DNA from: Bacteroidota bacterium | GTDB lineage: Bacteria > Bacteroidota > JABWAT01 | Direction: 5' to 3' | NCBI GenBank assembly: GCA_017303995.1 | Contig: JAFLBE010000044.1 | Span: 1 to 38,442 of the forward strand | DNA: 38,442 nt | Shown: piece after piece, positions 13,890 through 16,404 of the stretch | Numbering within the stretch: position 1 is the first letter of the stretch | Layout: each line of letters begins with the position of its first letter | The notes under the pieces: model-generated | Told to the model about the DNA's origin: nothing | The model's database searches: none | What the model saw: only the letters and a program-made list of their open reading frames with translations | Made by a program: the position numbers and the translations under genes

Positions 13890-13897
13890 TCTTTTCT

Positions 13898-13936
13898 ACA
13901 GGTTGTTTCTGGTTTCGAAACAACCTGTGTTTTTTT
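13898..13936 (+). terminator. Rho-independent terminator after the STAS gene
   Basis: ACAGGTTGTTTC at 13898-13909 pairs perfectly with GAAACAACCTGT at 13917-13928 across a seven-base loop, followed by a T-rich run to 13936. Confidence 0.93.
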
Positions 13937-13992: not shown

Positions 13993-14003
13993 TACTAACC
14001 ATT
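13993..14003. promoter_or_regulatory. Possible half-site of the methylase operator
   Basis: TACTAACCATT matches the operator arm near the methylase start (TAGTAACCATT, reverse of 15999-16009) in 10 of 11 bases, and lies 34 bases before the restriction enzyme start. It may let the methylase's helix-turn-helix domain also control the endonuclease. A single half-site is weak evidence. Confidence 0.35.
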
Positions 14004-14037
14004 CAGATTTGAACCCCATTTAATCAAAATATTTACT

Positions 14038-14754
14038 ATGTCAGAAGCTGAACTCTTAAAGTGTATTGTTGAATATTTTGAAAAGAATATTTTTAAAAAC
14101 CACATTAATTCAACATTAAAGAGTCATTCCAATCTGAAAAGTTATAATATTAATCCCATCGTTGTGAAGTATTTATCAAAGATACTTGATGATAAATATA
14201 CCCCGGAAGGAGTAGCAAAGGCTCTTTATTACCCAAGAGTGCTGGGAACCTCAATAAATACTTCATTTGGTACCCAAATCCAAAAAATGTTTGTTGAACT
14301 TAAAATAGCAGAAGGTTCTCTCATTAAGGGAATGGATATTGAGTTTACTGATCGGTTTGATGGCAGAAAAAAATGGTGCCAATTGAAGGCGGGACCCAAT
14401 ACAATTAATTCAGAAGATGTTAAGCCACTGATTAAAAAGTTTACAGATACTATAAATCTTGCAAGAACGAATAGTGCAATGAAGGGAATCAGTAATTCGG
14501 ATTTTATTGTTGGGGTGCTCTACGGAGAAACTTCAGAATTAAGTATGCACTACCGGGAAATTGATAAAATTCATCCGGTCTATGCAGGAAGTGAATTCTG
14601 GTTTAGGATTACAGGATATCCGGATTTTTATAACCACCTGGTAACCGATCTGCATGCCTGTATAAATTCACTTGAAACCAATGGTTTTTTTGAAATTGGG
14701 TTTAATAACCTTGTAAAAGAAATAAAAGCTTCATTACTATTCAATTTTGATTGA
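14038..14754 (+). CDS. Type II restriction endonuclease (PmeII-like, tentative)
   Basis: The 238-residue protein is the nuclease partner of the adjacent C5 methylase. A conserved block RVLGTSINTSFGTQIQ (67-82) and the active-site region GMDIEFTDR ... WCQLKAGPNTIN (98-124) resemble small type II enzymes; I recall them from the PmeII/Eco47II-like group but cannot confirm the name. The PD-(D/E)xK residues would be Asp100 and Gln115-Leu-Lys117, with Gln in place of the usual Glu, a change known in several active restriction enzymes. The gene is AT-rich. Its last 18 bases overlap the end of the methylase gene on the other strand. No ribosome site is evident. Confidence 0.8.
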   Translation: MSEAELLKCIVEYFEKNIFKNHINSTLKSHSNLKSYNINPIVVKYLSKILDDKYTPEGVAKALYYPRVLGTSINTSFGTQIQKMFVELKIAEGSLIKGMDIEFTDRFDGRKKWCQLKAGPNTINSEDVKPLIKKFTDTINLARTNSAMKGISNSDFIVGVLYGETSELSMHYREIDKIHPVYAGSEFWFRITGYPDFYNHLVTDLHACINSLETNGFFEIGFNNLVKEIKASLLFNFD

Positions 14755-15981
14755 AGTGGTATACGCATTTAGAAATTTTATAATGGAATATCCTATCTCC
14801 TTGCCCAGATTTACTGGCACAGCATTCCCGATCTGTTTGTATTGCTGTGCAGTGGAACCCGAGAAAACCCAATCGTCAGGAAAAGTTTGAATTCTTGCAT
14901 ATTCGCGAACAGTAAACGGTCGTGTTTCATCAGGATGGCATCTTTCAGTTTGCTTTTGTGCCGGGCTACAAGTTAAAGTTAAACAGGGTTCATCCCAACC
15001 AATTCGTCTTCCCATTCCTGTTTTTCCACCTCCCAAATAAAAACTTTGTCCCATAAATTCCTTTTGGATATGAATTGGCAAATCCCGCCAGTAGCCCTTT
15101 GGGGGCACTAAATCTAAGATTTCTTTTTTCCTTTTTGGATAGGTCACACCAGATGAAGGTGGAACATCAGTATTAAATAATTCTCCCTTTTTCAGGGCAT
15201 CCGAAAGCGTATAAATTCTCTTATAGGGTTTAGGGTATTCAAAGTTAAGATTTATATCTTTTCTTATTCCAACCAAAATAATTCTTTCCCTTTTTTGCGG
15301 AACTTTAAAGTTTACCGCTTTAAGGATCTGAATGGGTTCAACTTTATAACCAATTTCATCAAGAATTGAAATCATACCTTGTAACGTTCTACCATTATCA
15401 TGACTTAATAACCCCCGAACGTTTTCTCCAATACAAATCAAAGGATTTACTTCCTTTACAACCCTTGCAAACTCATAAAATAAAGTTCCTCTAGCATCGT
15501 TTAATCCAAGTTTTTTTCCTGCATAACTAAACGCCTGACAAGGAAATCCACCAGTAACGACATCAATCGTATCTAAATAGGTTGAAAAATCAAAGGATTT
15601 AATGTCCCCTTCAAGAACCTCCCATTTTGGACGGTTTGCTCTTAAGGTTTTACATGCCCATTTATCAATTTCATTAAGGGCAACACATTTCAATCCTGAT
15701 TTTTCTAATCCAACCGCTAATCCCCCTGCTCCTGCAAAAAGTTCTAAGACTGAGTAATCTTTTAACGGTTCAACAAAGTTAATATCGGGTTCATTTGGTA
15801 CAGGTTCAATAAAATTGAAAAAAAGGTTTTCAACATCCTCTTTTTTATAAACTCTATAATTACTAACTGGTTCACGAACTGCACTAAAAGTTCCTTCTCT
15901 ATCCCATCTTCTAAGTGTTTCCTTGCTTTTACCAATGAGTTTAGATGTTTCATCAAGTGTTAAATACTCTTTTGTAACCAT
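14737..15981 (-). CDS. C5-cytosine DNA methyltransferase with N-terminal MerR-type helix-turn-helix
   Basis: This enzyme protects DNA from the partner endonuclease by methylating cytosine. Residues 1-55 or so form a MerR/excisionase-like HTH (LTLDETSKLIGKSKETLRRWDREG, then NYRVYKKEDVENLF). The methylase follows with motif I ELFAGAGGLAVGLE, IV GGFPCQAFS (catalytic Cys), VI ENVRGL, VIII QKRERI and X QIGNAVP, all intact; the 414 residues are full length. I start at ATG 15981; the longer frame would need TTG 15990. An inverted repeat spans this start and is a likely site for autoregulation through the HTH. The 3' end overlaps the endonuclease gene. Confidence 0.92.
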   Translation of the reverse strand: MVTKEYLTLDETSKLIGKSKETLRRWDREGTFSAVREPVSNYRVYKKEDVENLFFNFIEPVPNEPDINFVEPLKDYSVLELFAGAGGLAVGLEKSGLKCVALNEIDKWACKTLRANRPKWEVLEGDIKSFDFSTYLDTIDVVTGGFPCQAFSYAGKKLGLNDARGTLFYEFARVVKEVNPLICIGENVRGLLSHDNGRTLQGMISILDEIGYKVEPIQILKAVNFKVPQKRERIILVGIRKDINLNFEYPKPYKRIYTLSDALKKGELFNTDVPPSSGVTYPKRKKEILDLVPPKGYWRDLPIHIQKEFMGQSFYLGGGKTGMGRRIGWDEPCLTLTCSPAQKQTERCHPDETRPFTVREYARIQTFPDDWVFSGSTAQQYKQIGNAVPVNLGKEIGYSIIKFLNAYTTSIKIE

Positions 15982-16010
15982 ATTATCCAACCTTATACAA
16001 TGGTTACTAA
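15971..16010. promoter_or_regulatory. Inverted repeat over the methylase start: candidate autoregulatory operator
   Basis: TTTGTAACCAT (15971-15981) and ATGGTTACTAA (16000-16010) pair in 10 of 11 positions around an 18-base spacer. The first arm ends exactly on the methylase start codon. A fused HTH domain in the gene product makes self-binding the natural reading. Confidence 0.55.
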
Positions 16011-16404
16011 AATAGATAGTCTACAACGGAAAAAGCAAATTAAATCAACAAAAAGACTGATTATTTATTCAGTATTATGGTGGGTTACCCTAATATCTGG
16101 TTTAGGCTTTCTGTCGACTCTATTCCATAGTTAATATTCCCAAATTTGAATTTCGTCACTAGTATTAGGATTCATATTGAATTCAATTTGTTTAAACCGA
16201 TTTCCAATCCCTCTCTCCGGTTAATTTTCCCGATGTGATTACCTTTCGTAATTTCCAAAGAGCAAAAAACTGATCATTTGGTTGAAAATGATATTTTGCG
16301 CTTTGGCACGTAATTTGGCATTGTAAGGGTATTTAAAACCAAATAAACACAGGTTGGTCAGATTTCATTTACCTGCAACCTAATAAATTAATCGAAAGTC
16401 CGGA
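15982..16404. other. Intergenic stretch after the restriction-modification pair
   Basis: The 423 bases contain the outer arm of the methylase operator, then AT-rich DNA with no gene seen. TTTGGCACGTAATTTGGCAT at 16302-16321 resembles a sigma-54 promoter (TGGCAC-N5-TTGC) but has TTGG in the second box. The response regulator promoter should lie in the last 100 bases. Confidence 0.4.

Follow-up and report, generated by a model that had tools for sequence, protein, structure and literature searches.

This locus raises the question of how a restriction-modification pair with no adjoining controller gene might be regulated, and in particular whether the methylase itself could take on that role. 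The pair lies in a window of 38,442 nt (the whole stretch of DNA analysed here, contig JAFLBE010000044.1 of a Bacteroidota bacterium), for which an earlier note made from the sequence had pointed to a methylase with an N-terminal helix-turn-helix (HTH) domain, to an inverted repeat at its start codon and to a near copy of one repeat arm before the endonuclease gene. The pair is of Type II and is composed of an endonuclease (R) and a C5 methylase (M) that are encoded on opposite strands and meet tail to tail:

14038 to 14754, plus strand: R, Type II restriction endonuclease of the EcoO109I/PmeII family, 238 aa (Pfam PF14511)
14737 to 15981, minus strand: M, C5 cytosine methyltransferase, 414 aa from its ATG (Pfam DNA_methylase, 1.2e-85)
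14737 to 14754, both strands: 18 nt shared by the 3' ends of the M and R frames, tail to tail (measured)

R belongs to the Pfam family RE_EcoO109I (PF14511) with a score of 86.2 bits for a cut-off (gathering score) of 22.5, the name "PmeII family" being the annotation of three of its four plasmid relatives. No match to R was detected in the PDB at E 0.01 and no relative in phages at E 1e-3. The C5 methylase domain of M starts at residue 77 and scores 288 bits. In another genome of the same genus (G011, loci L003/L032), the R protein is identical and M is 99.5% identical. The genes flanking the pair encode a STAS-domain protein and a response regulator and no C gene occurs directly beside it, which bears out, for its immediate surroundings, the claim that a separate controller protein is absent. 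A terminator-like hairpin of 13 pairs with a T-rich tail is found at 13897-13929, after the STAS-domain gene and just upstream of R; scans of the region for sigma-70 promoters and for terminators returned numbers at about chance level.

The front part of M corresponds to the following feature:

15766 to 15981, minus strand: N-terminal winged HTH of MerR type followed by a linker, 72 residues, recognition helix ETLRRWD (Pfam MerR_1, 8.9e-7)

The MerR_1 match covers residues 8-53 of M and lies above the Pfam cut-off, indicating that a DNA-binding domain is fused to the N-terminal end of the methylase. When the HTH was used in a profile search of the PDB, the best MerR-like match was 3qao (2.8e-7), and the best profile matches overall belong to the MerR family rather than to XRE/Cro/434-like proteins. 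Judged by these profile matches, the front domain of M is a winged HTH of MerR type, as had been noticed earlier. A structure model of the 72 residues, of middling confidence (pLDDT 75), was matched by Foldseek to BldC and BmrR with a probability of 1.00 and a TM of about 0.6; the E-values, of which the best is 3.7e-3, are all above 0.001 and give weaker support than the profile searches. In full-length MerR-family regulators, a long dimerisation helix follows the winged HTH. The model displays no long helix after residue 58, where its pLDDT is low, and the methylase domain that begins at residue 77 leaves little room for one. Eight phage matches to the HTH correspond to short HTH stretches.

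The inverted repeat is present exactly as described in the earlier note and consists of the arms TTTGTAACCAT (15971-15981), which holds the start codon of M, and ATGGTTACTAA (16000-16010), with 10 of 11 positions that pair and a gap of 18 nt. Taken on the window alone, this repeat is not clearly more than chance: inverted repeats of such quality (arms of 11 nt with 10 or more matches and a gap of 3-30) form 27 clusters in the window, and 10, 9, 8, 16 and 8 clusters in five Markov shuffles of it. Its significance thus comes from its conservation in homologues, not from the single sequence. Comparison of these homologues indicated that the repeat supplies the outer portions of an element of 31/32 bp, TAACCNNTGTNTAANGTTnnnnnAnnTGGTTA, which in the window is the following:

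15975 to 16006, minus strand: 32-bp candidate operator TAACCATTGTATAAGGTTGGATAATATGGTTA (in the sense of the M gene), single genomic copy, kept in homologues

This candidate operator is composed of outer arms and of an inner half-site (GGTT), its right arm overlapping the M start codon. It occurs once in its own genome at up to three mismatches, with no second close copy that would suggest a regulon at that threshold.

Of 394 genomes of the phylum, 49 match R; six of them, among which is the own genome, do so closely, with 44-100% identity, and the remainder weakly, with 25-32%. Scanning the genome contigs with R gave 13 loci. The search for the repeat in homologous loci that had been proposed as a check found TAACC-N21/22-GGnTA across the M start in all 16 loci first tested and before R in none of them; this set includes L032, nearly identical to the window system, and leaves out L035, which has no M 5' end, and L001-L003, which are copies of the window system. 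With the first 130 residues of M as a query (E 1e-15), the HTH-methylase was found in 10 of the 394 genomes, and the element is present in all 10. Among the copies aligned, 36 are of 32 bp and share invariant bases at positions 1-5 (TAACC), 8-9 (TG), 13-14 (AA), 16 (G), 18 (T), 28-29 (GG) and 31-32 (TA), while five further copies are of 31 bp, the missing base being one that separates left arm and core. The asymmetric element is inverted as a whole in L005, a situation that would suit DNA bound by a protein rather than an encoded peptide or a structure in the mRNA.

Searches made with the DNA alone led back to the same methylases. A 20-base pattern matched six of the 394 phylum genomes with at most one mismatch, three of which had no R match and carry the same methylase and element next to a partner of the Eco47II family (PF09553); this pattern is incomplete, as it found six of the 10 genomes with the HTH-methylase and missed four in which the element is 31 bp long or has diverged further. 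When 397 genomes belonging to a single family, some of them also in the phylum set, were searched by DNA alone with up to two mismatches, 26 places in 25 genomes were obtained (18 with none, 3 with one and 5 with two). All 21 places with 0-1 mismatch (19 new and two already known from the phylum search) lie ahead of an HTH-methylase gene of the same orientation, with a constant distance in 20 cases and an offset of 3 nt in the remaining one. This holds for none of the five places with two mismatches in these 397 genomes, which are located within or close to unrelated genes (a release-factor gene contains two of them). The reversed pattern, used as a control at up to two mismatches, had matches in 11 of the 397 genomes.

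The element also follows the recognition helix of the methylase. A T(L/I)RRW helix was identified in 30 of 49 distinct related methylases, and the element or its core accompanies 28 of these 30, window's M included, so that the repeat persists in close homologues that keep the HTH. It occurs with none of 18 methylases having other helices, these being the 19 that remain minus L110, which begins at the edge of its record and has no upstream sequence; among the 18, an XRE-like HTH is present in two, and in four no N-terminal domain can be seen. The Fisher value of 3e-11 for this co-occurrence is indicative only, since the patterns were set after part of the loci had been seen and since relatedness of the loci overstates their independence; with shuffles, the figure is 0.8%. 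The 30 methylases fall into 23 of the window type, four of a gamma type (L075-L078) and three of a second class (L079, L080 and L089) with a shorter repeat, TAACC-N14/15-GGTTA. In gamma-type loci, R is upstream in tandem and TAACCATGnnnAAnGTT precedes M as copies or near copies. The two misses are L077, which has near copies only, and L073, which keeps the RRW helix and has, in place of the usual operator, a different repeat upstream of M (GATTACC-N13-GGTAATC). In the gamma-type loci, one copy of TAACCATGnnnAAnGTT is located at the R stop codon beside a TTTGAC sequence and one near the M start. In L080 (2809-3001), the two genes are divergent and are separated by a nearly perfect AATAACC-N15-GGTTATT, a single operator that could control both.

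Alignment of 41 loci, chosen for carrying the element (L073 and L035, the latter without M 5' end, were left out), further revealed a promoter-like sequence abutting the operator:

16007 to 16014, minus strand: -7 promoter box of the TAnnTTTG type, TATTTTAG, directly next to the operator (41-locus alignment)
16036 to 16039, minus strand: TTTG as candidate -33 box, with 21 nt between it and the -7 box (read from the sequence)

The eight bases that precede the operator read TAnATTTG, with T and A each in 37 loci at -8 and -7, and T, T, T and G in 39, 41, 37 and 37 loci at -4 to -1; the window box departs from this at one position, with TTAG in place of TTTG. The upstream box is weaker, with a T at -30 in 34 of the 41 loci and with varying position and spacing. 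TAnnTTTG is the sigma-A -7 box of flavobacteria, located at -12 to -5 (excerpts of PMC9723704), from which transcription is predicted to start ca. 5 bases into the operator, at about position 16002 of the window. The operator would then overlap the predicted methylase promoter, and a protein sitting on it would cover the start site.

Overall, these data suggest that the element is very probably the operator of M, bound by its MerR-type HTH to repress its own gene, a reading for which conservation, promoter position, co-occurrence with the helix and the DNA-only search all speak. The HTH at the front of the methylase would bind the 32 bp at 15975-16006, which extend from the base after the -7 box to the start codon, so that the bound methylase would cover the transcription start and keep RNA polymerase from its own promoter. 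Methylase would be made freely when its level is low and its synthesis would be shut off when the level is high, that is, by negative feedback. We infer repression rather than activation from the position of the element. In MerR-family regulators the operator lies between the -35 and -10 boxes; here, in contrast, it follows the -7 box.

Three other explanations of the conserved element were considered. Because many loci have an uninterrupted frame that leads through the element to the ATG and reads ICN.C.RL.N.V, what is conserved might be an extended in-frame N-terminal peptide and not the DNA. This is extremely unlikely: where the length differs by one base (31 versus 32 bp), the frame changes and runs into a stop, yet the DNA motif is retained (L006, L037, L041 and L071/L116), the element is inverted in L005, and gamma-type loci hold a copy further upstream, at the R end. 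Furthermore, the first in-frame ATG falls within the right-arm register in 38 of the 41 loci, at codon 1 in 17 and at codon 3 in 21, and only 9-10 nt further on in the remaining three. Outer arms that can pair and a start codon in or beside the right arm would likewise agree with an RNA hairpin by which the methylase mRNA conceals its start codon. Such a hairpin would, however, leave the conservation of the core unexplained, and the mRNA would lack much of the left arm if transcription starts, as predicted, at about its base 5. The five outer pairs hardly vary, and the pair that does (7-26) has no covariation, being Watson-Crick in 8 of 36 copies, a number reached or exceeded by 99.9% of shuffles; such a hairpin is thus very improbable. 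As for the protein involved, sequence is what points to the methylase, and another host regulator might bind the element instead. We regard this as no more probable than the hairpin, since close matches were found at these methylase genes only (all 21 places with 0-1 mismatch among the 397 genomes, and the single copy in the own genome) and since the element is absent from all 18 relatives with other helices. A methylation-sensitive promoter was also considered and set aside: no GGNCC occurs within -100 to +60 of the operator in any of the 41 loci, which makes regulation through promoter methylation unlikely if the site of M is GGWCC/GGNCC.

The remaining alternative concerns the endonuclease side, where the near copy of one arm reported 34 bases before the endonuclease start was found as follows:

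13993 to 14003, plus strand: TACTAACCATT, lone half-site, probably a chance occurrence, 34 nt before the R ATG at 14038

This half-site, located just before the R start, shares 10 of 11 positions with the left arm, it is also carried by L003/L032, which has the same R, and a half-site may suffice for weak binding, all of which would be in line with the proposal that the same HTH also binds there and times the endonuclease. Yet it comes without the conserved core and the second arm. In a test of 20 loci, from which 18 more were dropped for too little upstream sequence, only the window had it; the full operator precedes R in none of 38 loci (the 39th, L334, has no recognised R), and isolated half-sites do so in seven of the 38, for a chance estimate of about five. 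Moreover, TAACCAT occurs eight times in the window, four times per strand. The half-site before R therefore looks like chance, and control of the endonuclease through it, as put forward in the earlier note, is quite unlikely. The preferred reading, in which the operator serves the methylase gene, leaves R as no direct target of the HTH on the evidence presented here.

Comparison of partner enzymes suggests that the operator belongs to M, since it stays whichever of two endonuclease families is the partner. It is kept with EcoO109I-type and Eco47II-type enzymes, the 19 new loci having nine partners of the former type, nine of the latter and one in which none was recognised. On a quick tree of 57 methylases, the fewest changes of partner type amount to 13, a figure that depends on the tree, in which 19 of 54 inner branches are weak. 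L328 and L329 have nearly identical methylases and different partner enzymes. R and M are convergent in the window and in 36 of 38 pairs compared; the two exceptions are L041, which has a second and convergent R, and L116, in which a 28% match lies in tandem. Of 41 convergent pairs, 37 have reading frames that share 4-112 nt, and the frames of the other four are 1, 2, 14 and 290 nt apart. This tail-to-tail overlap has persisted through the many changes of endonuclease family counted on the tree. The single methylase of L041 (2843-6055) is accompanied by two EcoO109I-type endonucleases, of which the one upstream in tandem is 64% identical to R and the convergent one 46%.

Self-repression and gene layout might together act as a timer that needs no C protein, a suggestion that we consider tentative and on balance doubtful. 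Upon entry into a new host, unrepressed transcription of M would run into R and delay the cutter by collision or antisense; as the methylase fills its operator, M transcription would fall and R would be released, with no site needed before R.

That HTH-fused methylases can repress their own genes, as stated in the earlier note, is experimentally established for M.Ecl18kI and M.SsoII (excerpts of PMC3695355 and PMC3978073), and self-regulating methylases have been reviewed (PMC12707154, in part). According to these excerpts, M.SsoII and M.Ecl18kI share with the present M a C5 methylase with a front DNA-binding domain (about 70 residues in the SsoII/Ecl18kI type), an inverted repeat at the methylase promoter and self-repression, which is predicted here. 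Their HTH is 434-repressor-like, the front domain of M.SsoII having been modelled on the 434 repressor (excerpts of PMC3978073), whereas that of M is of MerR type. The Ecl18kI operator is a 15-mer repeat (excerpts of PMC3695355) and the present one has 31/32 bp with an inner half-site. In addition, Ecl18kI has divergent genes with overlapping R and M promoters, while here the genes are convergent and their promoters neither shared nor overlapping; consequently, repression of M could not free an overlapping R promoter as in Ecl18kI. In M.EcoRII, a fused repressor domain mediates self-repression and the endonuclease gene is unaffected (excerpts of PMC12707154), as would be the case for M. EcoRII repression requires methylated substrate sites, in contrast to the 41 loci studied here, none of which has a GGNCC near the operator.

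Other pairs with related enzymes differ in their regulators. The firmicute plasmid pairs of the PmeII family from Aerococcus (L045) and L. plantarum (L046) have an endonuclease of the same family and methylases that are ca. 53% identical in their catalytic part and that also carry a front HTH; the latter is XRE/CI-like (HTH_3 and HTH_26, weak matches) and not of MerR type, and the TAACC/GGTTA operator is absent. The EcoO109I system, whose endonuclease belongs to the same Pfam family (PF14511), has a C protein, whereas the window pair has no adjoining C gene. Partners of related methylases belong to the EcoO109I/PmeII, Eco47II, SinI and TdeIII families and, given the recognition sites of these partner families, M is likely a GGWCC/GGNCC methylase. 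Excerpts of PMC8112702 report a GGWCC methylation motif in P. mendocina DNA and list PmeII among enzymes whose site is the methylation motif of the strain; we take PmeII to be the P. mendocina enzyme, and R would cleave a GGWCC-type site.

No MerR-fused regulatory methylase was found in the literature, a search that covered open-licence papers only and is thus weak evidence of novelty; in the part of the review PMC12707154 that was available, the word MerR has 0 occurrences. PMC10746215, which lists both MerR and a C5 methylase, deals in its available part with an orphan Dcm and names MerR only among regulated genes, and the available parts of PMC3346939 and PMC8989522 are not relevant to such a fusion. 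As far as the open-licence literature goes, a MerR-type HTH on a self-regulating methylase would therefore be an undescribed variant of the SsoII/Ecl18kI/EcoRII kind. The small set of self-regulating methylases would gain a second domain type (MerR versus 434-repressor-like) together with a 32-bp operator. The occurrence of one front module and operator with two endonuclease families further suggests that a methylase carrying its own regulation can change cutters and, if the tail-to-tail layout matters, it may explain in a simple way how the cutter is delayed in pairs that have no C protein. Finally, a further restriction-modification gene was detected in the window, at 98-1663 on the minus strand; its product is MmeI-like and its frame stops inside the methyltransferase domain, near the window edge.
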